This document shows positions 24,067 through 51,060 of a stretch of DNA of 54,732 nt, piece by piece; within the stretch, counting starts at the first letter, position 1; the number at the start of each line of letters is the position of its first letter. Both the position numbers and the translations under genes were made by a program. Origin of the DNA: Naasia sp. (GTDB lineage: Bacteria; Actinomycetota; Actinomycetes; Actinomycetales; Microbacteriaceae); assembly GCF_025465545.1 (NCBI RefSeq), contig NZ_JAODMK010000012.1, positions 1 to 54,732 on the forward strand. The letters are read 5' to 3'. The notes under the pieces were generated by a model that did not search any database, had not been told where the DNA came from, and saw nothing but the letters and a program-made list of their open reading frames with translations.

Positions 24067-24143
24067 ACCCGTCATCGGGGGAGGGACGCCGCAGAACTGC
24101 TCGAATATACTGGCGATTCCGCGGATGGCTTACCCGAAGCCGT
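24067..24143 (+). promoter_or_regulatory. promoter and CTTACCCG leader of the 24262 flippase gene
   Basis: ACCC at 24067-24070 and GGGGG at 24077-24081 form the C/G-tract repeat. TATACT at 24106-24111 is the -10 box, 39 bases from the start of the repeat. About 16 bases on, GGCTT-ACCCG-AAGCC at 24127-24141 makes a perfect 5-bp hairpin with loop ACCCG, containing CTTACCCG (24129-24136). The same order of elements occurs before the giant gene at 41172. Confidence 0.6.
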
Positions 24144-24261
24144 CCTCAATCGAAGCCGAGGCGCCCCAATTGGCTATTGCCATGCCCAATAGAGGGTCCT
24201 GTCGCACTGGTTGGAACGGTCCCTTCGGCCGTCCGGGTCGCGGGGCGAAGTGGGGCAGTCG

Positions 24262-25812
24262 GTGGTGACGCACGGAGGATTGGCACGGACCGCCTCACGC
24301 AGCGCGGTTGTGACGATCAGCGGGCAGCTCGCCCGTGTCCTCCTGCAGTCGGTCGGCGTCGTCATCCTTGCGCGCCTGCTCGCCCCGTCCGACTATGGCC
24401 TCGTCGCGATGGTCCTCGTGATCATCGGCATCGGCGAGGTCGTGCGCGACTTCGGCTTGTCGACCGCGGCAGTACAGGCGAAGACGCTGTCCATCGAGGA
24501 GCGCACGAATCTCTTCTGGATCAACAGCGGGATCGGCCTCACCCTGACCGTGGCGCTGATGCTCGGATCGCCCCTGGTGGCTGCACTGTTCGGGGATTCT
24601 CGCCTGGTGGGCCTGACCCTCGTGCTCGCGGTGACCTTCCTGTTCAACGGGATCGCCACGCAGCTGCGCGCGGACATGAACCGCGACCTGAGCTTCGGGC
24701 GTCTGGTCGTCTCGGACATCCTCGGTCAGCTCTTCGGGCTGGCGACGGGAGTCGTGATGGCCCTGTCCGGCTTCGGTTATTGGTCCCTGGCGGGGCAGCA
24801 GGTCGTGCTCTCGCTCAGCACCTTGACCGTGGTGTGCGTGTTCGCCCGCTGGAGACCGGGACGATATCGCCGGGACGTCCCCGTCCGCCGGTTCCTCAAG
24901 TTCGGCCTCGAGGTGATCGGCGCTCAGGCGCTCGGCTATGCGAGCAAGAACATCGACACGCTCGTGATCGGCACGACGCTCGGTGCCACCCCGCTCGGCT
25001 ACTACAACCGGGCGTACCAGCTGCTCGCTCTGCCGTTGAGCCAGATCAACGCTCCCAGCACGCGTGTGGCGCTGCCGGTGCTCTCCAAGCTGCAGACGCA
25101 GAGGGACCGGTTCGGGGCTTACCTGCTTGCCGGCCAGACCGCGATGCTGCACCTGGTCCTCACGATCTTCTCGCTCACCGCGGCCGTCGCGGTGCCTCTC
25201 GTCGACCTGGTGCTCGGGGACAAGTGGGCCTCGGTGGCTCCGCTGTTCCAGATCCTCGCCGTCGCCGGCGTCTTCCAGACCGCGGGCTACGCCACATACT
25301 GGACCTTCCTGGCGAAGGGACTGACGCGCTCCCAGCTCTATTGGCAGCTCGCGTCGCGGCCCATCGTGATCGGGGCCGTCATCATCGGCTCCTTCTGGGG
25401 GATGACCGGGGTCGCCACCTCCTACGCCGGGGCGAGTGTCGTCACCTGGTTCCTCGGACTGCTGTGGATCCGTCGGGTCTCCGACGTCCCTGTCCGGGGC
25501 ATGTTCTTCAATGTGGTTCGTGCCGTGAGCGGCTACGGCGTCTGCGCGGCGGCGGCCTGGGGCGCGTCGCTGCTCGCCCGTGACCACGTGCCGAGCCTGC
25601 TCCTCGGCATCGCCGGGTGGCTGGTCGCGTGGGCACTGGTCACCCTCGCCTGGCCGGGCTTCCGGCGGGACGTGTCGACAGTCGTGCGGATGGGCAAGCT
25701 GCTCCGCCGCTCGAAGAACGTGGACGTCGTTCCCGAGGTGGAGTCCGAGGTGGGTGTCAGCGCCGAAGGCGAGCCACTGCCGCGATCGTCGGCTGCAGCA
25801 GTCGAGTCGTGA
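24262..25812 (+). CDS. Wzx-like lipopolysaccharide/polysaccharide flippase
   Basis: A 516-residue membrane protein of the polysaccharide transport family. The N-terminus TASRSAVVTISGQLARVLLQSVGVVILARLLAPSDYGLVAM is nearly a consensus family start, and SKNIDTLVIGTTLGATPLGYYNRAYQL is the central signature. About fourteen spans are followed by a hydrophilic tail of about 50 residues rich in Glu and Val. It should flip a lipid-linked repeat unit. Starts at GTG 24262 or 24265 fit best; a TTG at 24211 would also be in frame. Its 3' end overlaps the convergent pyruvyltransferase gene by 56 bases. It has the shared promoter and hairpin leader. Confidence 0.85.
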   Translation: MVTHGGLARTASRSAVVTISGQLARVLLQSVGVVILARLLAPSDYGLVAMVLVIIGIGEVVRDFGLSTAAVQAKTLSIEERTNLFWINSGIGLTLTVALMLGSPLVAALFGDSRLVGLTLVLAVTFLFNGIATQLRADMNRDLSFGRLVVSDILGQLFGLATGVVMALSGFGYWSLAGQQVVLSLSTLTVVCVFARWRPGRYRRDVPVRRFLKFGLEVIGAQALGYASKNIDTLVIGTTLGATPLGYYNRAYQLLALPLSQINAPSTRVALPVLSKLQTQRDRFGAYLLAGQTAMLHLVLTIFSLTAAVAVPLVDLVLGDKWASVAPLFQILAVAGVFQTAGYATYWTFLAKGLTRSQLYWQLASRPIVIGAVIIGSFWGMTGVATSYAGASVVTWFLGLLWIRRVSDVPVRGMFFNVVRAVSGYGVCAAAAWGASLLARDHVPSLLLGIAGWLVAWALVTLAWPGFRRDVSTVVRMGKLLRRSKNVDVVPEVESEVGVSAEGEPLPRSSAAAVES

Positions 25813-26839
25813 CCGCGAGCGTCTCGTGAACCTGTCTCACCAGCTCCTCCTCGCCGACCTGGTCGATCACGCCGAGCGTCACGGTCGAGGGCGAGGAATC
25901 CTCCCGCAGATCCACGGTGTGCGCCCAGCCGATATCGGTGAGCAGCGGAGCGAACTTGCGCGAGTACGCCCAGGCGATCGCCGGTGTGCCGGTGGAGATG
26001 GCGTTCAGGCAGGCGTGCATGCGCGAACCGACCACCAGTCGGGCGGCCGACACCATCTCCCTCACCTCGTCCAGGGACGCGGGCACCAGAACCTCGAGCC
26101 CGAGTTCCTCGCCCAGCGCGCGGACGACCGGCACGTCGTTGTCGGCGCTCCGGTTGTCGATCACGTGCGCGAGCAGCGTCACGGTGCGTCCCCGACTCCG
26201 CAGGCCGTCGATCAGGTTCCGGACTTCGCGCCGGTAGTGCTCCGGGTCGCCGTGACGGGACGAGTTCCAGAGCAGTCCCGAGATGTTCAGCAGGACGTCC
26301 CGCGGCTCGGCTCGAGCGGGTTGGGGCAGCGCGAACACGATGTCCGTGGCCGTCGTGTCCACCGGCCGTCCGAGCTTGGCGGCGTAGGCCGCGCTCGCCG
26401 TGTCGCGAGCGGCGACGAAGGCGGCCCGTCGCAGCGTGTACCGGGCGCCCACGCGGAAGCGTCGAGTCGAGAATGGGCCGATCGTCTGCGGGGACATGAC
26501 CACCGGGATCTTCAGCTTGCGCGCCGCGTGCTGGACGTACATCATCCGGGTGATCCTTCGCGGTCCATAGATGTCCGCGAAGCTGTCGCCGGCTCCCGTG
26601 TCGATGACGAGGTCGTACTGCCGGAGCCATTCGGTGACCGGGCCACGGCGGGAGATCGCATCGCGCCTGATCAGTCCCATAGAGGGGGAGAATCCGGCGG
26701 CATTCGGGCCAAGGTCCTGGAAATCGATGCTGATGTCCTCGCCGAGCGCGGCCCGCGCCAGCGATTCCGCTCCTCGAGCCAGCGCTCGGACTCCCAGATT
26801 GGCGGATCGGTCATCCGCCCACAGCACCAGCACGCGCAC
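25757..26839 (-). CDS. polysaccharide pyruvyl transferase family protein
   Basis: A 360-residue protein of the CsaB/WcaK family. It starts MRVLVLWADDRSANLGVRALARG and shows YDLVIDTGAGDSFADIYG, VVMSPQTIGPF, FVAARDTASAAYA and VVGSRMHACLNAISTGTPAIAWAYSRKF, the full set of family marks. It is a more complete family member than the protein at 13948. It likely adds a pyruvate ketal to a sugar. AAAGGGGGG precedes the GTG and a TAGGCT -10 box lies upstream, next to a 16-base palindrome that it shares with the divergent gene at 26950. The tail overlaps the flippase gene by 56 bases. Confidence 0.88.
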   Translation of the reverse strand: MRVLVLWADDRSANLGVRALARGAESLARAALGEDISIDFQDLGPNAAGFSPSMGLIRRDAISRRGPVTEWLRQYDLVIDTGAGDSFADIYGPRRITRMMYVQHAARKLKIPVVMSPQTIGPFSTRRFRVGARYTLRRAAFVAARDTASAAYAAKLGRPVDTTATDIVFALPQPARAEPRDVLLNISGLLWNSSRHGDPEHYRREVRNLIDGLRSRGRTVTLLAHVIDNRSADNDVPVVRALGEELGLEVLVPASLDEVREMVSAARLVVGSRMHACLNAISTGTPAIAWAYSRKFAPLLTDIGWAHTVDLREDSSPSTVTLGVIDQVGEEELVRQVHETLAVTTRLLQPTIAAVARLRR

Positions 26840-26908
26840 GATTGCCCCCCTTTTCTCGTGCCCTCGGCACAGAGCGCGACCGAGCCTAGCCGACCCCTCG
26901 AGGAGCCC

Positions 26909-26924: not shown

Positions 26925-26949
26925 ACCGCTCAGCACGGGGAGTTGCTCG

Positions 26950-35150: not shown

Positions 35151-36079
35151 ACGCCGCCCGCGATTCCGGCCACCAGGCCGGCACCGCGAGCCGCGGTGCG
35201 CATCCCGCGCGCGCGAAGGTCGAGACGGCGGAGCAGGAGCCCGGCGAGGGCCTTCCCCGCACCTCCCGCAAGGCGGGCCAGACCCTGGGCGAGCAGACGC
35301 GCTCGGACCCGGAGCCGGCCGGCCGCCGAGGCCTCGAGGGCGAGCGAGGTGAGGATCCAGCTGTTGCCGGTACGGTACGCGCGCCTCAGAACCCACTGCC
35401 GTGTGGCCCGCTCAGCGGGAACGATGTCGAGCACGATCGCCTCGTCGCACCAGACGATGGTGCCGCCTGCCGCGTGCAGCTGCTTCGTGAAGAGCGTGTC
35501 CGACCCGCCCGTGAGGCCGAATCGCTCGTCGAAGCGGAGACCCAGGGGCCGGACCGCGGAGAGTTCGAGGAGGAGGTTGTTGGTCGCGGCAACACCGGTC
35601 ACGGTTCCGGTGGGGAGTCGGCGCCGGTCGAAGAATCGCCCTGCACGAACCCACTCCTCGGGTTCCGCACCGAACTCCGAGATGACCGGTCCCACCACTG
35701 CTGCGCACTCGAACTTCTTCCAGGTGGACAGCAGGTCTCGCAGCCAGCCCTCGACGGGCCGCTCGTCGTCGTCGATGAAGACGAGGATGTCCGCATCGCC
35801 GGACGCATCCAGTGCGGCGTTCCTGGCGGCTGCGATTCCTGGGATCGCCGCGTGGTGGTAGCGCACCTGCTGACCGAAGTCACGCACCTGGCCCTCGGCG
35901 CCCGCCTCGGGGTCGTTGTCGACGATGAGGATCTCGACCTGCTCGGGCACCGACTCGGCCTGGGCGACCAGGCTCGGCAGGAGCTGAGCCAGGTCGTCCG
36001 GCCGCCGGTAGGTCAGTGCGGCGATCACCACGAGCGGGGAGCCCGAGCCGGCCGTTCCGCGAAGTCGCGCCGCGGTCAC
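35123..36079 (-). CDS. GT2 family glycosyltransferase
   Basis: A 318-residue GT-A enzyme. Motifs are VIAALTYRRPDDLAQLLPSL, ILIVDNDPEAG, the nucleotide-sugar site ILVFIDDDERPVEGWL, and GLTGGSDTLFTKQLHAAGG with the late catalytic Asp. The last 90 residues are Arg/Ala/Leu-rich and may lie on the membrane. Its GTG start overlaps the stop of the giant secreted-protein gene by four bases, so both are translated from one leftward transcript driven from about 41233. Its tail overlaps the convergent GT4 gene by 28 bases. A glycosyltransferase coupled to a large secreted protein raises the question whether it glycosylates or anchors that protein. Confidence 0.85.
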   Translation of the reverse strand: MTAARLRGTAGSGSPLVVIAALTYRRPDDLAQLLPSLVAQAESVPEQVEILIVDNDPEAGAEGQVRDFGQQVRYHHAAIPGIAAARNAALDASGDADILVFIDDDERPVEGWLRDLLSTWKKFECAAVVGPVISEFGAEPEEWVRAGRFFDRRRLPTGTVTGVAATNNLLLELSAVRPLGLRFDERFGLTGGSDTLFTKQLHAAGGTIVWCDEAIVLDIVPAERATRQWVLRRAYRTGNSWILTSLALEASAAGRLRVRARLLAQGLARLAGGAGKALAGLLLRRLDLRARGMRTAARGAGLVAGIAGGVYTEYRRSA

Positions 36080-39000: not shown

Positions 39001-41172
39001 GACTCGCGCACCGTCGATGTAGAGCTGCATGCCGGACGCGTCCATCATGGCGACCGCCTGGTGCCACTGGCCGTCGTTGAGACCCGCCTTGCTCTGCACG
39101 GTGGCCGTGAACCCGGGGTACACCCCGAAGTACACGGTGCCGCTGCCGTCCATGTAGATGTGTCGGTCGTAGGCGCTGGAGTTGCCGGTGTTGCTGTTGC
39201 CGAAGCCGACGATCTTGCCGCCTGTCGTGCTGGTCGTGTTGAACCAGCTCTCCAGGGCGAACGTCTGCGGGCCGTCGATGGGGGTGGTGCTGGCCACGAG
39301 GCCGGTCCCGTCGCCGGAGAAGGTCGCCGCAGCGTTGGAGTCGCCGTTGATGGCGCCGCTCTGGCCGAAGCCGACGCCGCTGCCGGCTGTTCCGTCGTTG
39401 AAGCCGGCCCAGTCGACCACCGAGGTGGAGCCGGACGGGTCACCGAGGCGCCAGAAGGTGCTGGCGTGGTCGTCGAGCACAGCCTGCGCGTAGTCGCTGA
39501 CCTCGCCGGTGGCGGAGATCGTGACGCTGACCGCAGCGCTCAGCTTGGAGTTGAGGTACGGGTCGATCGCCTTCACCTGGTAGGTGTGGGTGCTCCCGGC
39601 ATCGAGGCCGGTGTCGAGGTAGCCGAGGTGCGGTCGCTGCCACCAGGCCTTGGAGCCGGCGCTGGTCGTGTAGATGAGCTGCCCGTCGCGGCGGAGCTCG
39701 TACGTGAGGAGCTCGTTGTCGCGGTCGTAGTTGGCGAGCCAGCCGATGCGGGCGGTGCCCTTGGCGTAGGAGCTCACGGTGGGGGTCCAGTCCGCGCCGG
39801 CGAGGCGAGGGGCGTCCTTGTTGGGTGCGATGCTCTTGACCGCGAACCGGACGAGGCCCATCTGCGCGCGCTGGTTCACTCCCGGGAAGTCGCCGCCGTA
39901 GACCACGTACTGGTCGTTCGCCGCGACGCTCCAGGCAGCCTGGCCGCTGGGGCCGGTGTAGAAGTCCGGGTACCAGGTGAGCAGGCTCGGGATGGTTGTG
40001 CCTTCCCAGCTGGGGTAGCCGAGCGTGTTGCCGTTGGCGACGTTCGAGGAGGGCGCCTTGGACCAGGCGAGACCACGCTGCACGGTCCACGGCTCGGTCT
40101 GGGGGTAGCCGCCCGACGTGCCGCAGTAGTGGGGGTGCCCGGCGATGTAGACCACGCCATTGCCCTGCGCAGCGCTGTAGGTGTCGCCGTGGCAGTCTTC
40201 GACCCAGATCAGGTCGCCGGTGCTCCAGTCGGCGCGGAAGGTGCCCTCCAGGTTGCCGCCGCCGCCGAAGTGGTAGCCGGTGCCGTAGATGCTGTCGGAG
40301 TCGCTGCTGAGGCTCCAGATGGCGGCGTCGGCGCCAGCGTTCTTCACGCGCTTGGCGACGCTCCAGGCCAGGTTCTGACCGGTGACCGAGTCCACGGCGC
40401 CGAGGCCGTAGCCGGCGTCATCGCCGACATTCGGGCCACCCTGGCTGTTGAGGGTCGTGAAGTGGCCCCCGAAGACCACCTTGCTTCCGTCAGGGCTGAC
40501 GACCATGGCGCGCGCACGGCGGTCCATGGCGGGAGCGAACGGGAGCAGGGCTCCGTTGGTGGCCGAGACCGCGCCGCCCCGCAGCCGTGCCGAGGACCCG
40601 ATGGCCGTGAAGTCGCCGGCCAGGTAGACGGTGCTGCCGTGCACACCGATGGCGTCCACGATCTTGTTGACCGAAGGCTTGAACGTGGTGATCAGCGAGC
40701 CGTCCGCGATGTTCACGGCGGCGATGCGGTTGCGGACCACGCCGTTGACCTGCGTGAAGTTTCCGCCGATGTAGAGGCGGGTCTTGTCAGGGGACACCTC
40801 GATGGTCTTGATCTCACCGTTGGTGGTGGGAGCGAACGAGGTGTTCAGCACGCCCGTCCTGATGTCGTAGGCGAGGAGATTGGCTCGCGCGACCTGACCG
40901 GCTCCGCCCTCGCCGACCCCGGCGGGGCGGGCGCTGGTGAACGACCCTCCGACGTAGACGGTGTTGCCGACGATCTTCTGAGTCCAGACGATTCCGGACT
41001 TGTTGATCTGCACGGTGGGCAGAACGTCGGAGGCGACCGTCTCCGGCACTCCCGCCAGGGGAGCGGTGTCCGCATAGGCGGGCGCCACGAAGGACAGCCC
41101 TGCTGCGAGGACCACGGAAGCGGTCAGAAACGACGTCAGCGCGCGAACGCGCGCAGGAACAGAAATGGCCAC
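36076..41172 (-). CDS. giant secreted protein: beta-propeller, 2 LamG, 3 PKD, 2 beta-sandwich domains
   Basis: A 1698-residue secreted protein. The signal peptide ends at about APAYA/DTAP (34). Residues 50-450 are a beta-propeller of delta-60/DUF5122 type with VGGSFT, IGGNFT, LAGDFT and FGGHFT at blade ends, and a conserved DCHGDTYS...GHPHYCGTSGG segment (about 326-355). There follow a fibronectin-like domain (455-555), LamG domains (560-780 and 795-1010), PKD domains (1019-1099, 1103-1183 and 1403-1483, each with NFGDG or TFGDG) and two related beta-sandwich domains (1190-1390, 1493-1698). There is no LPxTG or other sorting signal. GTG 41172 is used because the signal peptide starts there. 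The protein probably binds surface glycan. Confidence 0.85.
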   Translation of the reverse strand: MAISVPARVRALTSFLTASVVLAAGLSFVAPAYADTAPLAGVPETVASDVLPTVQINKSGIVWTQKIVGNTVYVGGSFTSARPAGVGEGGAGQVARANLLAYDIRTGVLNTSFAPTTNGEIKTIEVSPDKTRLYIGGNFTQVNGVVRNRIAAVNIADGSLITTFKPSVNKIVDAIGVHGSTVYLAGDFTAIGSSARLRGGAVSATNGALLPFAPAMDRRARAMVVSPDGSKVVFGGHFTTLNSQGGPNVGDDAGYGLGAVDSVTGQNLAWSVAKRVKNAGADAAIWSLSSDSDSIYGTGYHFGGGGNLEGTFRADWSTGDLIWVEDCHGDTYSAAQGNGVVYIAGHPHYCGTSGGYPQTEPWTVQRGLAWSKAPSSNVANGNTLGYPSWEGTTIPSLLTWYPDFYTGPSGQAAWSVAANDQYVVYGGDFPGVNQRAQMGLVRFAVKSIAPNKDAPRLAGADWTPTVSSYAKGTARIGWLANYDRDNELLTYELRRDGQLIYTTSAGSKAWWQRPHLGYLDTGLDAGSTHTYQVKAIDPYLNSKLSAAVSVTISATGEVSDYAQAVLDDHASTFWRLGDPSGSTSVVDWAGFNDGTAGSGVGFGQSGAINGDSNAAATFSGDGTGLVASTTPIDGPQTFALESWFNTTSTTGGKIVGFGNSNTGNSSAYDRHIYMDGSGTVYFGVYPGFTATVQSKAGLNDGQWHQAVAMMDASGMQLYIDGARVDRRSDVTSAQGYSGYWRVGGDSAWNGDNYFDGKIDDVSIYDGALTRDQVREHYTLSGRTLAGAVVPTDAYGSTVYAAQPDLYYRLGETSGTTAVDSSGNGNDGTYANGVTHGAAGAVVGTTDTAGSFDGNDDTVYTNRRFSNPTTYSLEGWFKTDSTSGGKLIGFGGNQTGNSGSHDRDVFLRADGTIVFGTWTGGTNLATTAPGYNDNKWHYVVATQSSAGMKLYVDGSLAGQNGQTGAENSVNYWRIGGDTTWESWFYLRGSIDEIAVYGYALSASDVLSHYNAGSSGTPANVAPTAAFTSTSTGLTLSVDGSGSTDSDGTVSSYAWNFGDGGTATGSTAGHTYTTAGDHIVTLTVTDDDGASDSVTHTVTVAAANAPPVAAFSSSSADLVATMDASGSSDSDGTVASYSWNFGDSTSGTGAKTEHTYAAAGTYDVILTVTDDKGATDSVTHPVTVTAAPPATGDLARDAFDRTLSAGLGNADLGGAWTATGSATRYSVNGTGNVTSVAGSTLTATLGSASSTDTEVQVTASMTQAATGGNHYIAVIGRRIGVNDYRVRLAIGTTGAVTMQLQRNGTTLTSGVVAGLTMAPADKVRIRLQVTGTSPTTIQAKVWKVGGTEPAAWRLTTTDSTDGYQSAGGVGIATYLNGAATASVTTRFDDFWAGPTASAPPAPTNAAPTAAFSFTTTDLAASFNGSGSSDVDGTVDGYAWTFGDGGVGTGATPNHDYGSAGTYSVKLTVTDNKGATDSITKSVTVAAPVTPPAGPLATDDFGRAVTGGWGTATTGGTWTLKAGGSYFSVDGAGKITTPAAGKTIEAYLNGVSSTATEVKVSVGFGPLPVGGNVYAAVVGRRTATEDYRVRVTLTPAGQVQLALYRTGAAALKTVTLSNLTMAADERLQVRFQVTGSGATTLNAKAWKVGATEPAAWQATATDSTSSLQVAGGVGLGAYFGGGVTSLPSVVSFDDLLVTEVK

Positions 41173-41275
41173 GGGTAAGCCTTCGGGTGGGTATCGGCTG
41201 CTTTCGGGTAAAGCGCCAGTAGCCCGAAGTATAAGCGAGGATTCGCGGGGGTCGGATAGCCCCGCGTTAGGGGGC
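41167..41275 (-). promoter_or_regulatory. promoter, hairpin leader and start-codon hairpin of the 1698-residue protein gene
   Basis: Minus strand. The repeat GCCCCCTAACGCGGGGC lies at 41275-41259, and the TATACT -10 box is at 41233-41228, 41 bases from its C-tract. The hairpin GCTTT-ACCCG-AAAGC is at 41214-41200. A second CTTACCCG (41179-41172) sits in GGCTTACCCGTGGCC at 41181-41167, a stem that contains the GTG start codon, with AAGG as ribosome-binding site directly before it. Confidence 0.6.
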
Positions 41276-42073: not shown

Positions 42074-42127
42074 TTCCCCTTCTATTGGGGGAATGCCTCC
42101 CAGAGGGCCGCTCCCTACACTTGCGGA
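42074..42127 (+). promoter_or_regulatory. leaderless promoter of the 42128 acyltransferase gene with C/G-tract repeat
   Basis: TTCCCC-TTCTATT-GGGGGAA at 42074-42093 is an inverted repeat. Its C-tract starts 40 bases before the -10 box TACACT at 42116-42121, which is followed by exactly six bases and the GTG at 42128. The repeat also carries the ribosome-binding site of the leftward gene on the other strand. Confidence 0.55.
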
Positions 42128-44242
42128 GTGACCCGAACACTCGCTGCTTCGCCGCGCCGTGCGGAAGCGGCGACGCCGAATGGCGGCTTTCTGGTCGAGA
42201 TTCAGGCCCTCCGCGCGATCGCGGTGCTCCTCGTCGTTCTCTATCACCTCTGGCCCGCATATCTCCGGGGCGGTTATGTCGGTGTCGACGTCTTCTTCGT
42301 TATCTCCGGCTACCTGATCAGTGCTCATGTGATTCGTTCTCTTGAGCGCGGGCGATTCACCCTCAGCGACTTCTACGCCCGCCGCATTCGCCGGCTGCTC
42401 CCTGCGTCGTTGACGGTGCTCCTGGCAGCGGGCATCGCGACACTTGTCTGGGCGCCGCAGCTGCACTGGATCGACACCGGCAAGAACATCGTCGCCAGTG
42501 CGTTCTACGTGGAGAACTGGTCCCTTCTCTTCAACGCGGTGGACTACTTGGGCGCGTCGGCCGACGTGATCCCCTCGCAGCACTTCTGGTCGCTGTCGGT
42601 GGAGGAGCAGTTCTACCTCGTCTGGCCCGTCTTCCTTCTTCTCGGCTGCACCCTCGCCGCACGGCGCGGCTGGCCGGTGCGCCGCGTGCTCGCGGTCCTG
42701 GTGGGGATCGTCGTGGTGGTCTCGCTCGCCTACTCGGCTGTGTCCACGGCCGTGGACCAGGCCAGCGCGTACTTCAACACCGGCACTCGCGTGTGGGAGT
42801 TCGGCGCGGGCACCCTCCTCGCCATCTGGCTGGCGAAGGCGCCCAAAGTGGGAGCGTGGGGTGTCCCCGTCACCTGGCTGGGGCTGGCCGCGATCCTCGC
42901 CGCCGCACTCACCTACACTGACGCCTCCGCGTTCCCCGGCTATCTGGCTCTCGTGCCGGTCCTCGGCACTGCGATGGTGATCGCAGGGCGGGGAAGACGC
43001 GGGCCCGCCTCCCCGGCCCCGCTGTTCGCGCTCCGGCCGGTGCAGTTCCTGGGCGACATCTCCTACTCCGTGTACCTCTGGCACTGGCCGCTCATCGTTC
43101 TGCTGCCGCTGGGACTGGGGCTTCCCCTCTCCAATCCGCTCAAGGCACTCATCCTCGTCGTCACGCTCGTGCTGGCCTGGGCCAGCAAGCGGTTCATCGA
43201 GGACCCGTTCCGCATCGACCGGCCCGGCACGGCTGACAAGCCGAAGAAGGCGGTGAGCCGGCGGCGGATCTTCACCCTCGCCGCTGCCGGGATGGTGCTG
43301 GTGAGCGTCGTCGGCGGCGCGGGGTGGGCGGTCAGCTCGGCGAAGGCCAGCCAAGCCCAGGCTGTACTCGACGCCCTGCCTGACCCACTGACGGTCCCGT
43401 GCTTCGGCGCGGCGGCGCTCGCCGATCCCGTGAAGTGTGCGCAACAGGGCACAGGAGCGATCTACCCGGATCCCATCGTCGCGGCGCTCGACACCGGCGA
43501 TCGGCGGGACCCGCCGTGCCAGCAGTCCAGCTCGGGAACCGAGGTCATCGTCTGCTCCTTCGGCTCCAAGGACCCGGCGGCTCCGCGATACGCGCTCGTC
43601 GGCGACTCGCACGCCGCACAGTGGATGTCCGCGATGCGGGTCCTTGCCCTGCGGAACGGCTGGCACCTCGACACGTACCTCAGGTCCGGCTGCGGCCTCT
43701 CCACCATTCCTGCCGGCGGCCTCGGGGTCGTATCCCGATGCGTCGAGTGGAACGACCAGGCTCTGCAGCAGCTCGTCGACGGCCACTACGACGTCGTCGT
43801 GGTCTCCATGCGCAGCAGCATCGTGGGTGGGGCGGCCAAGACTGACGCGGATCTCGCCCGAAACGTCTCCGAGATCGACACCAGCTGGCGGGCGGTCCAG
43901 TCCTCGGGCGCCCGGATCGTCGCGATCCGCGACACTCCTCAGCCCGTGAGCGCGGGGATCCCCGACGCGCCGAGGTGCGTCGCGGGAACCCCTGACTACC
44001 TCATCGCCTGTTCCTTCACGCGCGCCAAGGGCCTGGTGCCTGATCCCGAGGTGGAGGCCGCTCGGGTGAACGGGAACGTGGCCGTGCTGGATCTCACCGA
44101 CAGGTTCTGCTCACGGGACACCTGCGCTCCGGTGATCGGAGATGTCCTCGTGTATCGCGACGGGCACCACGTGAGCGCCCTCTACATCACGACGCTGGCG
44201 CCCTTCCTCGACGAGGCGCTGGCTGACGCGCTGGCCGGCTGA
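42128..44242 (+). CDS. OafA-like acyltransferase with C-terminal SGNH domain
   Basis: A 704-residue two-domain protein. Residues about 18-385 are an acyltransferase 3 membrane domain: FLVEIQALRAIAVLLVVLYHL, GGYVGVDVFFVISGYLIS, DFYARRIRRLLPASL and HFWSLSVEEQFYLVWP. An extra span at about 395-415 leads to an extracytoplasmic SGNH domain (about 440-704) with YALVGDSHAAQW carrying the nucleophile Ser, and a late RDGHHVSALY carrying the catalytic His. This is the layout of OafA/OatA-type O-acetyltransferases: the membrane part passes the acetyl group across and the SGNH part places it on the glycan. The mRNA appears leaderless. Confidence 0.92.
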   Translation: MTRTLAASPRRAEAATPNGGFLVEIQALRAIAVLLVVLYHLWPAYLRGGYVGVDVFFVISGYLISAHVIRSLERGRFTLSDFYARRIRRLLPASLTVLLAAGIATLVWAPQLHWIDTGKNIVASAFYVENWSLLFNAVDYLGASADVIPSQHFWSLSVEEQFYLVWPVFLLLGCTLAARRGWPVRRVLAVLVGIVVVVSLAYSAVSTAVDQASAYFNTGTRVWEFGAGTLLAIWLAKAPKVGAWGVPVTWLGLAAILAAALTYTDASAFPGYLALVPVLGTAMVIAGRGRRGPASPAPLFALRPVQFLGDISYSVYLWHWPLIVLLPLGLGLPLSNPLKALILVVTLVLAWASKRFIEDPFRIDRPGTADKPKKAVSRRRIFTLAAAGMVLVSVVGGAGWAVSSAKASQAQAVLDALPDPLTVPCFGAAALADPVKCAQQGTGAIYPDPIVAALDTGDRRDPPCQQSSSGTEVIVCSFGSKDPAAPRYALVGDSHAAQWMSAMRVLALRNGWHLDTYLRSGCGLSTIPAGGLGVVSRCVEWNDQALQQLVDGHYDVVVVSMRSSIVGGAAKTDADLARNVSEIDTSWRAVQSSGARIVAIRDTPQPVSAGIPDAPRCVAGTPDYLIACSFTRAKGLVPDPEVEAARVNGNVAVLDLTDRFCSRDTCAPVIGDVLVYRDGHHVSALYITTLAPFLDEALADALAG

Positions 44243-44365: not shown

Positions 44366-44370
44366 AGACC

Positions 44371-47300
44371 CTACGGGAGCTGGTTCGCCGTGAAGTCATC
44401 GAACCTGATGACCGCCGGCACGGTGGTGACGCCACCGCCGAGGTAGTTCATGAGCCCCACGAACCCCGCGACCTGCAGAGCCGCCGTCGTGTCCGACTTG
44501 GAGGTGAGCCAGTTCGCCGGCTCAGCGGTTCCTGCCACCCAGATCTTCGCCCGGAGGAGAGTGGGGTTGACCCCTTCCGCCTGGATCCGGATCCGGAGCT
44601 TCATATCGCTGGTGTAGGTGATGCCGCTCGCCGCAGCGGGGGAGGTCATCCCGGGCCCCTGCAGCTGGAGGCTGACTGCCCCCGCGGGAGTCACCGTGGC
44701 CCGCACCCGGTAGTCCCCCGATCCGGTCACCCGGCGGGCGATGACCGACACCTGCGCGTTGCCGCCCGCAGGCACCGCCCCGAGGGTGAAGGTCGCCTGG
44801 ACGTCGGAGCTCGAGGACGAGACTCCCTGGAGGTACGCCTCCAGGGTCCGGCCGGCCGTCGAGGTCGAGATGTTGCCCGTGCTGCCGTCGGTGGAGTACG
44901 GAGTGGAGGCGGCGTTGAATGTCCAGGGGCCGCCTCGTGTAGCGGAGCCCCAGCCGGAGCTCGTCGTGCGGTTGAAGTCGTCGGCCGCCAGCACGTCGTC
45001 GGCAGGAGGAGGCGGCACCGTGACCGTCACCGATTGCGTGGTGCTGCCGGTCGCGGCGCTGTCGTCGGTCACGGTGAGCTTCACCGTGTAGGTGCCCGAC
45101 GCGGCGTAGGTGTGATCCGTGGTGGCGCCGAGCCCAGTGCCGCCGTCACCGAATTCCCATGCGTACTTCGTGATGGTGCCGTCGGCATCAGTTGAAGCGG
45201 AACCGTCCACCGCTACCGACGCGCCGCTCACCGAGGTGGTGAACGAGGCGGCGGGCGGAAGGTTCACCACGGGAGGAGGCGTGCTGCCCTTGCCCGTCAC
45301 GTAGTGGGCATTCACGGTGGCCGCCGAGATCTCCTTGTTGTAGACGGCGACCTCGTCGATGCCGCCAGCCAGGTACTTGGCGCCGGTCCAGGTGCTGTCC
45401 CCGCCGATCCGCCAGTAGCCGGCGAGGTTCTGCCCATAGGTGACATCGGTGCGCGATGCGGCTTGCGCGCCGTCCACGTAGAGCCGCATCCCGGCGGAGC
45501 TGAGCGTGGCGACCACGTGGTGCCACTTGCCGTCGTTGAATCCGGACGCGCTCTGAACCGTGCTCTTCGCCGGGTTCAGGACGCCGAAGTAGATGCGGCC
45601 GGTTCCGTCCAGGTAGACGTGACGGTCGTAGAACGTGGAGTCGCCGGAGAGCTTCTCGCCGAAGCCGACGATCTTGCCGCCCGTCTTGCTGACCGTGGAG
45701 AACCAGGCCTCCACCGAGAAGGTGTCGGGAGCCTGGACCAACCTCTGGGCCACCGCCACCCCGGCACTCGTACCGGAGAAGGTGGCCGCCGTGTTGCTGT
45801 CGCCCGAGATCGCACCCGGCCGGTTGAGGACGACACCGGACCCTGCCACAGCATCGTTGGTGCCCGCAGTGTCGGTGAGGGCGGTGCCACTCTTCTCGTT
45901 GAGGCGCCAGAAGTGCGCGGCGCCGTCACTCAAGACTGCCTTCGCATAGTTGCTGAGCGCAGCGCCGGTGGCCACGGTGATGCTCACCGGGTCGCCGAGC
46001 GCCGTGTTTCCGAATGGATCGGTAGCTCGGAGCTGGTAGGTGTGCGTGCTTCCTGCCGCCACTGCGGTGTCCAGATAGGTCATCTGCGGGCGATCCCACC
46101 AGATGCGAGAAGCCTGCGAGACGGTGCGAAGGACGCTTCCGTCGCGGATGAGGTCATAGCTGAGGACCTGGTTGTCGCGGTCGTAGTTGGCCAGCCAGGA
46201 CACCTCCACCGTTCCCGCACCCGGCGACTTCAGGGTGGGCACGAAGGCAGCTGCCTTCAGGCGGGGGCCATCGTCGTTCGGCGCGATCGACTTGACGGCG
46301 AAGCGGACCAGTCCCTGCTGGGCGCGGCTGTTGACGCCGGGGAACTCCCCGCCGTACACCACGTACTGCGAGTTCGCCGCGACGCTCCAGGCGGCCTGGC
46401 CGGAACCGCTGACCTTGCCAGTGATGAAGTCCGGCCACCAGTTGAGCATCGAGGGAAGGGGGGTGCCCACCCAGCTCGCGTAGCCGAGGGTGTTGTTGTT
46501 GGCGGTCCTTCCGGACAGGGCCTTCGTCCAGGCCATCGCCCGCTGGACGGTCCAGGTGGGGGTCGTCTGGGGGAACCCGCCGGACGTGCCGCAGTAGTGC
46601 GGGTGGCCCGCGATGTAGACGACGCCGTTGCTCACCGCCGACGAGTAGGTGTCGCCGTGGCAGTCCTCGACCCAGATCAGGTTGCCCGACCAGTCGGAGC
46701 GGAACGTTCCCTCGAGGTTGCCGCCGGCGCCGAAGTGGTACCCGGTGCCGTACACGCTGTCGCTGTCCGAGTTGAGGCTCCAGATGGCCGCGTCGTCGCC
46801 GGCGTCGCGGACCTTGCTGTTGACAGCCCAGGGCAGCAGGGCACCCGTGACGGCGTCCACCGCGGCCAGTCCGTAGCCCGGGTTGCCGGAGCCGTTGAGG
46901 GTGGTGAAGTTTCCGCCGAGTACGACCTTGCTGCCGTCCGGCGAGATGGTGATGGCCCGAACCCGCTTGTCGGCGACGGGCGCAAAGGGAAGGACCGCAC
47001 CGGTGCTCGCGGAGATCGCGGCGCTGCGGATGCGGCCGGTGCTGCCGATCGCGGTGAAGTTGCCGCCCAGGTAGACGGTCGAGTTGGTCGCCTTCACGGT
47101 CTCGACGGTGGTGTTCGCGACGGGCCTGAAGTTGGAGACGAGGGCGCCGGTGGCGATGTTGAACGCGGCCACCCGGCTGCGGCTCAGGCCGTTCACCACG
47201 GTGAACAGTCCGCCGATGTACAGGCGGGTGCCGTCGGGCGAGGCGGCGACCGACTTCACCTCGCCGTTCACGGTCGGCGCGAAGCTGGTGATGAGTGCAC

Positions 47301-47607
47301 CCGTGGTCAGGTTGTATGCGAGCAGGTTGCTCCTGGGCGTCAGGTTGGTGCCTGCAGCGGCGCCGGCCGGGCGAGCGTTGGCGAACTTGCCACCCGCATA
47401 GACGGTGTTGCCCACGATCACCTGCGACCAGACGATGCCGTCGATCTGAACCGTGGGCAACGGGTCGCTGGACACCGTCTCCGGGGTCCCTGACGCGGGC
47501 GCGGTATCCGCCACAGCGGGCGCGCCGGAGATCGCGCCGAGCACGAGCGCCGAGATGGCGGCCGCGACAGTCAGGGAGCGGAAACGGAAAGAATTGGATT
47601 TGGCCAC
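44371..47607 (-). CDS. large secreted protein: beta-propeller, LamG, PKD, beta-sandwich
   Basis: A 1078-residue paralogue of the 1698-residue protein. The signal peptide ends at about PAVA/DTAP (34). Residues about 45-450 are the same delta-60-like propeller (VYAGGKFANA, YIGGLFT, LGGNFTAIG, LGGNFTTLN) with the conserved DCHGDTYS...GHPHYCGTSGG segment; then a fibronectin-like domain (455-555), one LamG domain (about 560-785), one PKD domain (about 795-875, WEFGDGG) and one beta-sandwich domain (about 880-1078). It is thus a short form lacking one LamG, two PKD and one sandwich domain. No sorting signal is seen. GTG 47607 lies in the same 18-base sequence as the start of its paralogue. Confidence 0.85.
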   Translation of the reverse strand: MAKSNSFRFRSLTVAAAISALVLGAISGAPAVADTAPASGTPETVSSDPLPTVQIDGIVWSQVIVGNTVYAGGKFANARPAGAAAGTNLTPRSNLLAYNLTTGALITSFAPTVNGEVKSVAASPDGTRLYIGGLFTVVNGLSRSRVAAFNIATGALVSNFRPVANTTVETVKATNSTVYLGGNFTAIGSTGRIRSAAISASTGAVLPFAPVADKRVRAITISPDGSKVVLGGNFTTLNGSGNPGYGLAAVDAVTGALLPWAVNSKVRDAGDDAAIWSLNSDSDSVYGTGYHFGAGGNLEGTFRSDWSGNLIWVEDCHGDTYSSAVSNGVVYIAGHPHYCGTSGGFPQTTPTWTVQRAMAWTKALSGRTANNNTLGYASWVGTPLPSMLNWWPDFITGKVSGSGQAAWSVAANSQYVVYGGEFPGVNSRAQQGLVRFAVKSIAPNDDGPRLKAAAFVPTLKSPGAGTVEVSWLANYDRDNQVLSYDLIRDGSVLRTVSQASRIWWDRPQMTYLDTAVAAGSTHTYQLRATDPFGNTALGDPVSITVATGAALSNYAKAVLSDGAAHFWRLNEKSGTALTDTAGTNDAVAGSGVVLNRPGAISGDSNTAATFSGTSAGVAVAQRLVQAPDTFSVEAWFSTVSKTGGKIVGFGEKLSGDSTFYDRHVYLDGTGRIYFGVLNPAKSTVQSASGFNDGKWHHVVATLSSAGMRLYVDGAQAASRTDVTYGQNLAGYWRIGGDSTWTGAKYLAGGIDEVAVYNKEISAATVNAHYVTGKGSTPPPVVNLPPAASFTTSVSGASVAVDGSASTDADGTITKYAWEFGDGGTGLGATTDHTYAASGTYTVKLTVTDDSAATGSTTQSVTVTVPPPPADDVLAADDFNRTTSSGWGSATRGGPWTFNAASTPYSTDGSTGNISTSTAGRTLEAYLQGVSSSSSDVQATFTLGAVPAGGNAQVSVIARRVTGSGDYRVRATVTPAGAVSLQLQGPGMTSPAAASGITYTSDMKLRIRIQAEGVNPTLLRAKIWVAGTAEPANWLTSKSDTTAALQVAGFVGLMNYLGGGVTTVPAVIRFDDFTANQLP

Positions 47608-47701
47608 GGGTAAGCCTTTTCGGGTAAGAACGGCGGATCGGGTAAGCCGGTTGGCGGCGACTGTAGGGGAAGGCCGAGGGGTTTCGCTAGGAAAATGGGG
47701 G
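47602..47701 (-). promoter_or_regulatory. promoter and triple CTTACCCG leader of the 1078-residue protein gene
   Basis: Minus strand. A C-tract CCCCC at 47701-47697 starts 36 bases before the -10 box TACAGT (47665-47660); the G half of the repeat is missing. The leader has CTTACCCG at 47646-47639, 47628-47621 and 47614-47607. The last lies in GGCTTACCCGTGGCC (47616-47602), which contains the GTG start codon. Confidence 0.6.
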
Positions 47702-47746
47702 TGATAGGGCGGAATTGGGGCGCGCTCCGCCCATGCAGAGGGTGAT

Positions 47747-48805
47747 CTAGCCCTGTCGGGCTGGAGAAGCGGTCCTCCTTCGCAGCAGTCGCTCCCGGAC
47801 TTTGCGAGGCAGCGAGAGCACTTTCAGGGGGAGTTCCCGGACTCGCTGGGCCCTGCTGCTGCGCGCCACCTGACGGCCGTAGCGGCGGAGGAACACAGCT
47901 GCGTCGTCGGCTGAGTCGAACAATCCGCGGTCGGACCAGAAGTCGGCGAGCTGCCCCCTGGCGGCTGCGTCCAACAGGGGAAAGGCGCGCCGGTGCACGG
48001 TGAAGAACGGGGAGCGTCCGCTTGCCGCGGCGTCGACAGCCGCCCTGACGCCGGCCGTGTGAGCGCCGCGCGGCCACACCGTGGGATTCGGGTCCTCGTG
48101 CAGCTCGTACACGGTGCCGATGGGCGTGCCGGAAGACAGGATCCAGCCGGTGTAGAGGAAGAACTCGGTGAGGTCTGCACGGACGAACTCGCGCGCGAAG
48201 CTCCGCCCGGCACGGCGTTCGATGTCGCTCATCATCGCCCGGACGAGGGCGGTGTCGAAGGGGAACGGCGTCACCGTTGCGGGGAAGTGCTCGACGTGCG
48301 CAGCGGGGTCGAGCCCGAGGTAGTCGAGGACGCGCTCCAGGTCCCGCCGAAGCGGGTGGCTGGCGAAGCTGTAGGCGCGAAGCCGCGGTCGACCGTCGGA
48401 GGCGAAGAAGTAGGACGCCTCTGCAGGAGCGACCAGGTGGTTCTTCGCGTCGAGCACGACATACCTGTCGCTTCGAACCAGTTCGGCGACCGCGAGTTTG
48501 AGAACCTGCTGGCTGCGCCAGCCGGTCGCGGCAGGAACGGTGCTGATCTCGGTTGGCCGGAGGATGCGCACCCGGGGCGCGAGAGCCCCGTAGCTGGAGA
48601 GGAGCTTCTCCCGCACGCTCGCCGGCATCGCGCGCGCCGAGTTGTCGATGACGAGGAGCTCTGCCACGAGGTGCTCGGGCAGGAATCTGCTCATCGACCG
48701 AGCCTGCAGCAGCAGCAGGGGATACTCGGCTTCGTACACCAGGCTGACGAAGGTGGGAGGGCCTGTCCTCACGTCCGCCCTTCCCGTCTGACTTGTGCTG
48801 TCCAT
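47747..48805 (-). CDS. DUF6492-like putative glycosyltransferase-fold protein
   Basis: A 352-residue protein without signal peptide. The N-terminal TFVSLVYEAEYPLLLLQARSMSRFLPEHLVAELLVIDNS and the segment RYVVLDAKNHLVAP (a DxKN in the place of a DxD) resemble DUF6492 proteins, which look like GT-A glycosyltransferases; that assignment is from memory of the family. Further features are FPATVTPFPFDTALV and RADLTEFFLYTGWIL. It starts two bases after the stop of the DUF1972 glycosyltransferase gene, so the two are translated together. It is probably a glycosyltransferase, but no activity is proved for the family. Confidence 0.65.
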   Translation of the reverse strand: MDSTSQTGRADVRTGPPTFVSLVYEAEYPLLLLQARSMSRFLPEHLVAELLVIDNSARAMPASVREKLLSSYGALAPRVRILRPTEISTVPAATGWRSQQVLKLAVAELVRSDRYVVLDAKNHLVAPAEASYFFASDGRPRLRAYSFASHPLRRDLERVLDYLGLDPAAHVEHFPATVTPFPFDTALVRAMMSDIERRAGRSFAREFVRADLTEFFLYTGWILSSGTPIGTVYELHEDPNPTVWPRGAHTAGVRAAVDAAASGRSPFFTVHRRAFPLLDAAARGQLADFWSDRGLFDSADDAAVFLRRYGRQVARSSRAQRVRELPLKVLSLPRKVRERLLRRRTASPARQG

Positions 48806-48807
48806 TC

Positions 48808-50187
48808 TCACCGGCCGTCGCGAGCGCCGGCCGGCACCGCCTGCGGCAGGATCTCCTGCGCGGTGGACTCCCAGCCCCGCTTGCGCCGGCGGCCGTTGGA
48901 CATGCCATGGATGCTCTCTCCCTCGGCGAGACGCATGGCGAGCTCCTCGTAGCCGAGTGCGACCTTGTCCCAGTCGTACATCTCCTCGGCGCGCTGCTGC
49001 AGAGCGGCCCCCACGGCGATGTGCTTCCACTCGGCGGATTCGATGCGCTCGAGAGTCGGAATCAGCGAGGCCGCGTCCGAGAAGTACAGACCATCCGACC
49101 CGGTCACCTCCCGGTTGAAGACGACGTCGTACGCCACAACGGCGGTGCCGGCACCCATGGCACGCAGCAGCGACGGGTTGGTGCCGCCCACCGAGTGACC
49201 GTGCAGGTAGGTGCGGGCGTGGGCGTAGAGCTGGTTGAGCTCATCCTGATCCCAGACGCCGCCGATCATCTTGATCCGCGGGTCGGCCTCGGCCATCCGG
49301 GCGATGCGGTCGGTGTACTCGGCCGAATAGGGAGCGGAACCGACGACGACCAGCGGGTACCGGGCACGCGAGGCGGAGTAGCCCTGGATGATGACATCCA
49401 CGTGGTTCTCCGGCTCGAAGCGAGCGACCACGAGATGGAACTTGCCCGGGGTGAGGCCGTGCTTGGCGAGCTTGTCGGTGGCGACGTCGGTGAGCTGCGA
49501 CGATCCGTAGGTGAGCAGCTCGGTGGGGATTCCGAACTCCGTCTCGTAGTACTCGGCGATGCCCCGCGCGTCGCTGATCAGCGCGTCGGCGGTCTGCACG
49601 GAGAACTCCTCCGCCATCCGGTAGTACCGGCGGCCCCACTTGCCCCACTTGCCGCGCTTCCACTCGAGCCCGTCCACGTGCACCGCGACGGGGACGCCCT
49701 TCGCCTTGATGATCGGCACGAACGGGGCGTTGGCCGCGTTGAAGACGAAGGCCATGTCCTGACGGCGGTGGAAGAGCATGTGCAGCGCTGACAGGGCGGA
49801 GTGGCTGAGCGTCTCCAGAGTCTTCTTCTTGAGCGCAGGAAGGTGCACGAGCTTCATGCCGAGATGCTCGGCCGGCCGGTTCGTGTCGGCAGTGCGACAG
49901 TAGACGGTGATCTCGTGGCCGCGAGCAGCGAGGCGCTGCCCGATCTCTTCCACCGCGGTCTCGAACCCGCCGTAGGCGGCGGGAACTCCGCGGGTGCCCA
50001 CCATCGCGATGCGCAGGCGCTTGAGAGGCTCCGCCTGGGCGGCAGGCTGCGGCTCGTTGAACGCGGCGGCGTCGCGCAGCAGTTCCTCGAACGGGTCCAC
50101 GGCGCGCAGACGGGCGAGGTTGCGGTCAGCGCGCAGGCGGCGGTCGTGCCGGCTGGGCTCGATCGAGTCGTCGCGGAGCTCGCTCAT
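48808..50187 (-). CDS. DUF1972/GT4 glycosyltransferase, probable rhamnosyltransferase-like
   Basis: A 459-residue GT-B enzyme. The first 56 residues are a charged extension. The family signature MVGTRGVPAAYGGFETAVEEIG (about 62-83) is the DUF1972 mark found in rhamnosyl- and related transferases. Then come VHVDGLEWKRGKWGKWGRRYY, a motif for the lipid-linked acceptor side, VVARFEPENHVDVII, and the donor site HGHSVGGTNPSLLRAMGAGTAVVAYD. The last 40 residues are Arg-rich. Rhamnose supply from rmlABCD makes a rhamnosyl donor plausible. Its leader carries one CTTACCCG. Confidence 0.85.
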   Translation of the reverse strand: MSELRDDSIEPSRHDRRLRADRNLARLRAVDPFEELLRDAAAFNEPQPAAQAEPLKRLRIAMVGTRGVPAAYGGFETAVEEIGQRLAARGHEITVYCRTADTNRPAEHLGMKLVHLPALKKKTLETLSHSALSALHMLFHRRQDMAFVFNAANAPFVPIIKAKGVPVAVHVDGLEWKRGKWGKWGRRYYRMAEEFSVQTADALISDARGIAEYYETEFGIPTELLTYGSSQLTDVATDKLAKHGLTPGKFHLVVARFEPENHVDVIIQGYSASRARYPLVVVGSAPYSAEYTDRIARMAEADPRIKMIGGVWDQDELNQLYAHARTYLHGHSVGGTNPSLLRAMGAGTAVVAYDVVFNREVTGSDGLYFSDAASLIPTLERIESAEWKHIAVGAALQQRAEEMYDWDKVALGYEELAMRLAEGESIHGMSNGRRRKRGWESTAQEILPQAVPAGARDGR

Positions 50188-50336
50188 CGGGTTCCCGCCT
50201 GGGGGGCGGTGCTGACGGAGAGGGTGCGGGGTGCGTTCCGGCGGGGCGACCGGGACGCCAGAGGCGTCTTCACTGTGGGTTCCTGTTTCGGGGGTACAGG
50301 TGTTCGGGTAAGCCGGAGCGGGGGACTCCGGTGTGT

Positions 50337-50367
50337 GGCGCCCGGTCCTGGGTGGGGACCGGGCGCC
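50337..50367 (-). terminator. terminator hairpin of the TagD-like gene
   Basis: A perfect 12-bp GC-rich stem GGCGCCCGGTCC/GGACCGGGCGCC with a 7-base loop lies 64 bases beyond the stop of the cytidylyltransferase gene at 50431. If it stops transcription, the glycosyltransferase gene at 50187 needs its own promoter. Confidence 0.65.
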
Positions 50368-50385
50368 TGCACTTGTCAGGTGCTG

Positions 50386-50412
50386 TGTGTCAGGTGTGTC
50401 AGGTGTGTCAGG
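50386..50412. repeat. 9-bp tandem repeat, three copies
   Basis: TGTGTCAGG occurs three times in succession, with a partial copy (TTGTCAGG) at 50373-50380 just before. It lies between the TagD-like gene stop and its terminator hairpin and could vary in copy number by slippage. Confidence 0.8.
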
Positions 50413-50430
50413 TGTTGCGGGGAGGGCGGC

Positions 50431-50880
50431 TCAGGCGTTGGAGACCTGGCGAGCTGCGGCGGTGTTGGTGATCGCATCGAGCGCTCGTCGCAGCTGGGTG
50501 CTGGAGGTCGACATCGTGTACGGGAAGTACACGACCTCGACTCCTACTGCGGCGAACTCGCGTTCGAGGCGGACGCCCATCTCGGTGCCGCGCCAGTCGT
50601 CGCCTTTGAAGAAGACGTTGAACTGGACTTCGCGCCATGTGTCGAGCTTGTCCGGGACGACTTCGGCGCGCGCCTCATCGACGAAGCGGATGTTGCGCAC
50701 GATCTCGAGACGCTCGGAGAGGGGGATGACGGGCGTGATGCCCTTCGTCTCACGGAGCATCTCGTCGCTCACGACGCCGGCGATCAGGTAATCGCACTGG
50801 CTTTTGGCGTGCTTGAGGATGTTGAGGTGGCCGACATGGAACAGGTCGAACGCACCGGCGGCATAACCGATTCGGGTCAT
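50431..50880 (-). CDS. TagD-like cytidylyltransferase (glycerol-3-phosphate type)
   Basis: A 149-residue nucleotidyltransferase of the cytidylyltransferase superfamily. It has GYAAGAFDLFHVGHLNIL with the HxGH motif, and the C-terminal MSTSSTQLRRAL matching the second nucleotide-binding motif (STTxIR). It probably makes CDP-glycerol from CTP and glycerol-3-phosphate, as TagD does; other alcohols such as ethanolamine are possible. With the CDP-ribitol enzyme this gives a second CDP-alcohol in the island. ATG 50880 has only a weak ribosome-binding site; a GGAGG further upstream at 50929-50925 instead faces a three-codon frame (see findings). It carries the shared promoter and three leader motifs. 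Confidence 0.85.
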   Translation of the reverse strand: MTRIGYAAGAFDLFHVGHLNILKHAKSQCDYLIAGVVSDEMLRETKGITPVIPLSERLEIVRNIRFVDEARAEVVPDKLDTWREVQFNVFFKGDDWRGTEMGVRLEREFAAVGVEVVYFPYTMSTSSTQLRRALDAITNTAAARQVSNA

Positions 50881-50901
50881 CGGGAAAGACCACAGCTTTC
50901 A

Positions 50902-51060
50902 CTATGGCTGCATTGACGCCCAGACCTCCGTTCGGGTAAACGAGGGTGCTCGGGTAAGCGGGCGTTCGGTTCGCTCGGGGTGCAGCGGGTAAGTCAGCAA
51001 CGAACCGTGTCCTCAAGATAGCGGACACGATTTCGGAAGTCTGCGACCCAATCGGGGGGT
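50902..51060 (-). promoter_or_regulatory. promoter and triple TTACCCG leader of the TagD-like gene
   Basis: Minus strand. ACCCCCCGATTGGGT at 51060-51046 is the C/G-tract repeat, 39 bases before the -10 box TATCTT (51020-51015). CTTACCCG follows at 50993-50986 and 50958-50951, and TTTACCCG at 50940-50933. The last forms a hairpin in which GAGG of the ribosome-binding-like GGAGG (50929-50925) is paired. ATGCAGCCATAG at 50913-50902 is a three-codon reading frame behind it. Confidence 0.55.

Follow-up and report, generated by a model that had tools for sequence, protein, structure and literature searches.

The analysed stretch of Naasia sp. (family Microbacteriaceae; contig NZ_JAODMK010000012.1, positions 1 to 54,732), hereafter the window, comprises 54,732 nucleotides (nt) and encodes a polysaccharide flippase, Wzy_C proteins, Wzz, glycosyltransferases, a sugar transferase, a TagD-like CTP-transferase, an acyltransferase and two PKD/LamG proteins that are read as secreted. 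Several of these genes are preceded by the 8-mer CTTACCCG, which a first-pass annotation had proposed as a leader element of surface-glycan genes. The real unit in the relatives is, as predicted from sequence, a short RNA hairpin with the loop ACCCG(AA) and a stem that is free to change. Gene starts were taken from a codon-usage caller seeded with ten window genes, and promoters were assigned by eye.

Hairpin-bearing leaders of the Naasia window

On the plus strand, the flippase gene (24211-25812; Polysacc_synt_3, family search 5.1e-71, start codon uncertain) follows an inferred promoter with a -10-like TATACT (24106-24111) and a hairpin at 24123-24145, GGATGGCTT[ACCCG]AAGCCGTCC. Short ACCCG-loop hairpins are thus present as first described, except that this one is longer than claimed, with nine pairs, one of them G-U. 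A further hairpin, GAGTG[ACCCGAA]CACTC at 42126-42142, had escaped the earlier annotation; it lies directly behind an inferred -10-like TACACT (42116-42121) and overlaps a possible GTG start (42128) of the gene for an Acyl_transf_3 and SGNH acyltransferase (42128-44242, start uncertain, family search on 42224-44242).

On the minus strand, the gene of the 1698-residue PKD/LamG protein (36076-41172, family search) is preceded by an inferred -10-like TATACT (41228-41233), the hairpin GCTTT[ACCCG]AAAGC (41200-41214), a weaker third copy CCACCCGAAG (41181-41190) between the two copies originally listed, and GGCT[TACCCGT]GGCC (41167-41181) lying across the GTG start codon (41172-41170). The second PKD/LamG gene (1078 residues, 44371-47607, family search) has three CTTACCCG copies at 47607-47646, the last running into its GTG start (47607-47605). 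The leader of the DUF1972 glycosyltransferase (48808-50187, family search, ATG at 50187) comprises (i) a loop-variant hairpin, CCGGAG[TCCCCCG]CTCCGG (50313-50331); (ii) a CTTACCCG copy (50305-50312) that is mostly unpaired in the predicted fold; and (iii) the hairpin CCTGT[ACCCCCGAA]ACAGG (50282-50300), with a Shine-Dalgarno-like 3' arm and a GTG 8 nt downstream. Three motif copies (50928-50993), including TCGTT[TACCCG]AACGG at 50943-50928, precede the TagD-like CTP_transf_like gene (50431-50880, family search). Palindromes of the form CCCC-N4-7-GGGG, often TCCCC...GGGGA, also occur upstream of motif-bearing genes, in the window at 42074-42093 (plus strand) and 41280-41254 (minus strand), and elsewhere at L039:16556, L043:6314, L121:10000, L145:9916 and L159:6192.

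All ten sites named in the first-pass annotation were recovered, eight as exact CTTACCCG and two as the variant TTTACCCG. Their placement in untranslated leaders in the sense orientation holds for the leader sites, with the qualification that the motif copies at 41179-41172 and 47614-47607 share their final G with the GTG start codon, as its first base. The window holds nine exact copies against 0.60 expected from dinucleotide shuffles (standard deviation 0.72), an excess of about 15-fold that none of 100 shuffles reached, so that the chance figure of 1.7 given earlier was too generous. When one mismatch is allowed the excess becomes weak (41 versus 29.75). The ninth exact copy, at 54441-54434, was absent from the earlier list and is antisense to a 188-codon open frame near the window end; it is probably a chance match.

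The 2.76 Mb genome contains 15 exact copies of CTTACCCG, nine of them in the window, which makes up 2% of the genome. Pairs of TTACCCG at most 30 nt apart occur five times in the genome, all in the motif-bearing leaders of the window (control 0), and single TTACCCG stands nine times in sense and never in antisense in 30 window leaders, versus two and three times in 440 other leaders of a 0.82 Mb sample (30% of the genome, window included). The exact 8-mer was rejected as the element itself because its genome-wide count falls below that of its backwards control in nine of nine Naasia genomes; a hairpin with the loop ACCCG(A)(A) describes the element better than the consensus first proposed. Elsewhere in the same genome, a T2SSE-family ATPase gene, PilT-like by eye, has a leader with TTACCCGA and CTACCCGA (L192:18944, contig C7, outside the window), and CTTACCCGAAGGGAG precedes a 147-codon gene that is rbfA-like by eye (L175:16291, contig C31).

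A fixed loop on a changing stem in Microbacteriaceae

Among Naasia relatives (27 sources read), the same motif precedes orthologous surface-protein and TagD-like genes. It also stands before genes for a glycosyltransferase, a small membrane protein and a protein that resembles Wzz by eye. Several of the surface-protein leaders end in AAGGC-TTACCC-GTG or a similar sequence, with the motif entering the start codon. In Naasia aerilata (L039:4817), the first 300 codons of a PKD/LamG-type gene whose start carries the motif contain four stops in the record used; this copy was left out of the alignment on account of them, and nine other PKD/LamG-type copies were aligned without stops.

Surface-protein leaders were read in 71 named loci, 49 from Microbacteriaceae and 22 from other families, which were kept apart; the 42 non-Naasia Microbacteriaceae loci had been fetched by protein and not by motif, and the Naasia loci L039-L055 for containing the 8-mer. 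ACCCG lies within 110 nt upstream of the presumed surface-protein start in 33 of the 49 Microbacteriaceae loci, including Cryobacterium, Planctomonas, Galbitalea, Frigoribacterium and Clavibacter, and in the other families the 110-nt leaders have no copy at 18 loci, one copy at three and two at one. Stems that differ completely are nevertheless paired, as in CGGCGGCC[ACCCGAA]GGCCGCCG, CGGCGAT[ACCCGAA]ATCGCCG and CTTCG[CTACCCGAA]CGAAG, and further examples of differing paired stems are CCCTTT[ACCCG]AAAGGG and CCTCT[TACCCG]AGAGG. When loops of hairpins with at least five pairs were counted de novo in 416 leaders of the 49 Microbacteriaceae loci (seven of them Naasia, Naasia copies kept in), ACCCG was the top-ranked pentamer (23 versus 3.5 expected). 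The hairpins also precede genes for acyltransferase, Wzz, Wzy_C and glycosyltransferase family 2 proteins.

The pairing was assessed by permutation, with the 3' flanks re-dealt between motif copies. Complementarity around sense ACCCG gave z 8.7 in Naasia (n=102) and 6.0 in other Microbacteriaceae (n=221), and 0.5 in other families (n=67); five control words stayed between z -0.8 and 1.3 in both Microbacteriaceae sets, and no control word exceeded 1.5 overall. The test leaves out L090, L092, L095, L096, L097, L100, L101 and L153 as Naasia copies, of which L092, L095 and L097 are not exact copies and L095 is a Microbacteriaceae bin; the perfect-stem, strand, start-overlap and palindrome counts given below leave out the same list except L092. 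The expectation that stems covary in orthologous leaders was thereby borne out, pairing being kept while the stem changes. An alignment of nine selected hairpins displays double-sided changes at all five pairs, with slid registers pairing at 31-61%; its members were picked for folding, and its 100% pairing is therefore partly by construction.

Orientation separates the gene classes further. In 85 leaders of four surface-glycan gene classes, ACCCG stands 156 times in sense and 10 times in antisense, versus 228 and 135 in 392 other leaders from the same loci. To avoid the bias from Naasia loci chosen for holding the 8-mer, leaders of the 42 non-Naasia Microbacteriaceae loci were counted separately, giving 81:8 in 60 target leaders versus 177:99 in 303 others; in the former, ACCCG is the most over-represented of the 1024 pentamers (81 versus 37.0). 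The proposal of a leader element for glycan genes is upheld by this bias and extends to surface-protein genes, in many orthologous leaders. Eight Naasia loci in which the 8-mer seemed a chance occurrence (L045, L046, L049, L051-L055), together with L056-L058 from other genera, stand outside the stem-permutation, perfect-stem, 85-leader and start-overlap counts; the eight have 24 sense and 14 antisense copies of ACCCG in 77 leaders. Taken at the level of sequence, the leaders of surface-glycan and surface-protein genes in Microbacteriaceae carry one to several sense hairpins with ACCCG(AA) loops and covarying stems.

The CCTG version and its leader open reading frame

One version of the element is defined by the pattern CCTGT-N1-2-ACCCGAA-N1-2-GCAGG, derived from the leaders of DUF1972 and sugar-transferase genes. 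It matched 47 times, in 40 of 398 genomes of the family and 13 of 85 genera, and its backwards control gave none; in an order-wide draw of 396 genomes, both matches fell in the approximately 34 genomes of the same family and none in the approximately 362 others. Carriage by phage was considered and rejected, the five matches on viral contigs being judged chance by eye. Thirty loci were read, nine of them from one genus and hence not independent. In all 30 the CAGG arm, which is Shine-Dalgarno-like, is predicted to be paired (at least 0.5), and in 29 an ATG or GTG follows the hairpin by 5-12 nt, L225 being the one locus lacking it. This codon opens a short open reading frame (ORF) of 26-42 codons in 25 loci and the main ORF in four; 21 of the 25 short ORFs overlap the following ORF (at least 200 codons) by four bases, ATGA or GTGA. 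The DUF1972 leader of the window shares this plan, with the hairpin at 50300-50282, a GTG at 50273, a 29-codon ORF (50184-50273) and a TGA/ATG overlap, ATGA, at 50187. The short ORFs (window 50273-50184; L209-L238) are Arg/Pro-rich in many genomes. The downstream genes are mostly sugar-transferase-like (by eye, with a family search for two loci), others including, also by eye, DUF1972 (L237) and hexapeptide-type transferases (L219, L223).

The combination of hairpin, Shine-Dalgarno-like arm and coupled leader ORF constitutes the strongest hint that translation start is the controlled step. A paired Shine-Dalgarno-like sequence shortly before the start, as in leader hairpins that mask this site, was found in the CCTG version only and not in hairpins far from the start, such as that of the flippase. 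Overlap of the motif with the start codon (ACCCGATG or ACCCGTG) occurs in 13 of 85 target leaders versus four of 392 others. Translational control, one of the two functions suggested in the first-pass annotation, hence fits part of the anatomy, namely the predicted pairing of the CCTG 3' arm and the frequent entry of the Naasia motif into the start codon.

Interpretation, rival explanations and known systems

The shared leader hairpin is probably an on/off control read by some molecule. With reasonable though far from full confidence, we take it to be a cis-acting RNA element of Microbacteriaceae, a putative translational control hairpin read by a trans-acting factor; such a factor is inferred because it would most simply account for a loop that stays fixed while the stem changes freely. 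The hairpin would limit translation start, and a factor recognizing the loop would stabilise or open it, switching glycan and surface-protein genes together. An RNA-binding protein is the most likely candidate and a small RNA a less likely one; several hairpins per leader would permit cooperative binding, and elements far upstream, as before the flippase, may influence RNA stability or serve as additional binding sites.

Several observations weigh against this interpretation. Only 32 of 325 leader copies of ACCCG have a perfect stem of at least five pairs, and most have no strong stem. Antisense ACCCG reaches z 2.6 in Naasia (1.6 in other Microbacteriaceae) and ordinary leaders from the rest of the same genome, outside the window, 2.4 in sense and 2.6 in antisense; part of the stem signal is therefore background. 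No ACCCG lies within 110 nt upstream of the presumed surface-protein start in 16 of the 49 Microbacteriaceae loci, some of these starts being perhaps wrong, nor in five of 28 TagD-like leaders, a count that excludes L078 and L079 as not recovered by the search pattern. Motif frequencies in Naasia are biased because the loci were fetched for holding the 8-mer. Paired TTACCCG has a patchy distribution in Microbacteriaceae (60 of 299 genomes), its control also giving scattered matches, and was set aside as a family-wide marker, being useful in Naasia only. Start-codon overlap falls outside Naasia to two of 60 versus two of 303 leaders and is therefore mainly a Naasia feature, and some hairpins lie far from the start, that of the flippase 178 nt before the called start. 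No factor was identified among the candidates considered, namely a NusG paralogue (in Naasia), CsrA and ANTAR proteins.

A small RNA carrying UUCGGGU might instead pair with the loop as its seed target, through loop-loop contact in many surface-glycan leaders. The conserved stretch of 5-7 nt presented in a loop and the several copies per leader are as such a partner would require, but no candidate was identified, though no exhaustive search was made, no Rfam match was found in the window and four loci, and CGGGT is absent from the twelve highest-ranked loop words in the leaders sampled from the own genome; we regard this explanation as unlikely. That the motif is instead an operator in the DNA, placed immediately behind the promoter and recognised by a transcription factor, with the hairpin incidental, is improbable. 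Such an operator would account for direct repeats and for motif copies that often lie, by eye, close behind -10-like sequences, and the same leaders are richer in CCCC-N4-7-GGGG palindromes (present in 16 of 58 leaders with at least two YACCCG versus 64 of 371 others; for TCCCC...GGGGA, five of 58 versus three of 371), but the flanks covary as inverted complements of free sequence, a feature not required by a protein that reads bases in DNA, the sense orientation is strong, and the CCTG version is tied to a Shine-Dalgarno arm and a leader ORF. The palindromes themselves may serve as operator for a transcription factor of the motif-bearing genes.

Recognition by an ANTAR protein through an altered loop is distinctly improbable: these proteins occur in all 20 genomes searched, a ubiquity that does not by itself account for an element confined to one family, and the known target hairpins have six-base loops with conserved A1 and G4 (PMC8164766), but here the G is the fifth base of ACCCG, loop size varies and single hairpins occur. 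An RNA thermometer or other passive structure working without a factor would agree with the paired Shine-Dalgarno-like arms of the CCTG version, but would not need a conserved loop. Pairing of the loop with ribosomal RNA (rRNA) or transfer RNA (tRNA) could draw on 16S rRNA CUUCGGGU, complementary to ACCCGAAG and present in locus L046, but such a partner is universal, leaving the restriction to one family and a few gene classes unexplained; the passive structure and the rRNA or tRNA partner are together very improbable. At L046:4036, the 16S rRNA stretch CTTCGGGTTGTAAA contains the exact complement of ACCCGAAG; 16S rRNA was rejected as the partner for its universality. tRNA-Pro(CGG) was rejected as well, since its anticodon loop would match six of seven bases but mismatch the conserved first A, and no gene for it was found in 95 loci scanned or by pattern search of the loci. 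A transcription-elongation element through which a specialised NusG would be brought to long glycan operons, the other function suggested at first, has gene content like that of the known targets, but exactly one NusG-domain (PF02357) match was found in each of the nine Naasia genomes to which the search was confined, and the element also precedes a short gene of 74-77 codons and enters start codons; we give it scarcely any probability.

Comparison with known systems places the proposed hairpin control in context. Among elongation systems, RfaH acts on polysaccharide genes, and both LoaP and ops/JUMPStart-RfaH employ, as here, a leader element common to long-pathway genes; they need a NusG paralogue, of which none was found in the nine Naasia genomes. 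The LoaP leader hairpin of dfn and mln is of the UNCG type (PMC12691694), unlike the ACCCG(AA) loops described here, which are no UNCG tetraloops of that kind. Searches of the window and of a further 78,565 bases in four loci returned no Rfam match above the gathering cut-off, in which the element differs from the epsC and wcaG motifs. The latter are larger structures. They form structured leaders ahead of exopolysaccharide-related genes and occur in B. subtilis and its relatives as well as in marine and cyanophage sequences (PMC2864571).

No description of an ACCCG-loop leader hairpin was found in the open-access literature searched, subscription papers and preprints lying outside the search. 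The mini-ykkC (guanidine-II) RNA resembles the ACCCG element in its small hairpins with short conserved terminal loops, and differs in the loop and in the genes. Its loops are ACGR (PMC2864571). Actinobacterial ANTAR-target RNAs likewise possess small leader hairpins, dual and often lying over the ribosome site or start codon (PMC8164766); they are unlike the present element in the A1/G4 rule of their six-base loops, in that single hairpins occur here, and in the gene classes, which here are surface-glycan genes.

The resemblance to CsrA/RsmA lies in short fixed-loop hairpins, often several per leader and some over the ribosome binding site. CsrA/RsmA acts on leader hairpins, with surface and biofilm genes as targets, and is unusual in actinobacteria. 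A Csr regulon needs GGA in the loop, where ACCCG stands here, and CsrA is present in 11 of 19 genomes searched and missing from eight, including Clavibacter G307 and G308 with strong hairpins; CsrA itself is excluded because the loop differs and the distribution is mismatched. GGA is the sequence that CsrA reads (PMC4894983). A CsrA gene occurs in six of the nine Naasia genomes (G000, G001, G003, G004, G005, G008) and no link is drawn between it and the ACCCG hairpins. Joint control of surface polysaccharides and surface proteins at the post-transcriptional level is known mainly in proteobacteria and Bacillus. The present element would give a high-GC Gram-positive family a shared RNA code for surface control, clear enough to seek the factor, whose identification could reveal a new kind of regulator that reads RNA and provide a cell-surface regulon readable from genomes. 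We put at about an even chance that the hairpins define a dedicated Microbacteriaceae post-transcriptional regulon parallel to Csr and written in another RNA code, in which an RNA-binding factor reads ACCCGAA loops and switches capsule or exopolysaccharide assembly together with giant surface proteins, partly via coupled leader ORFs.

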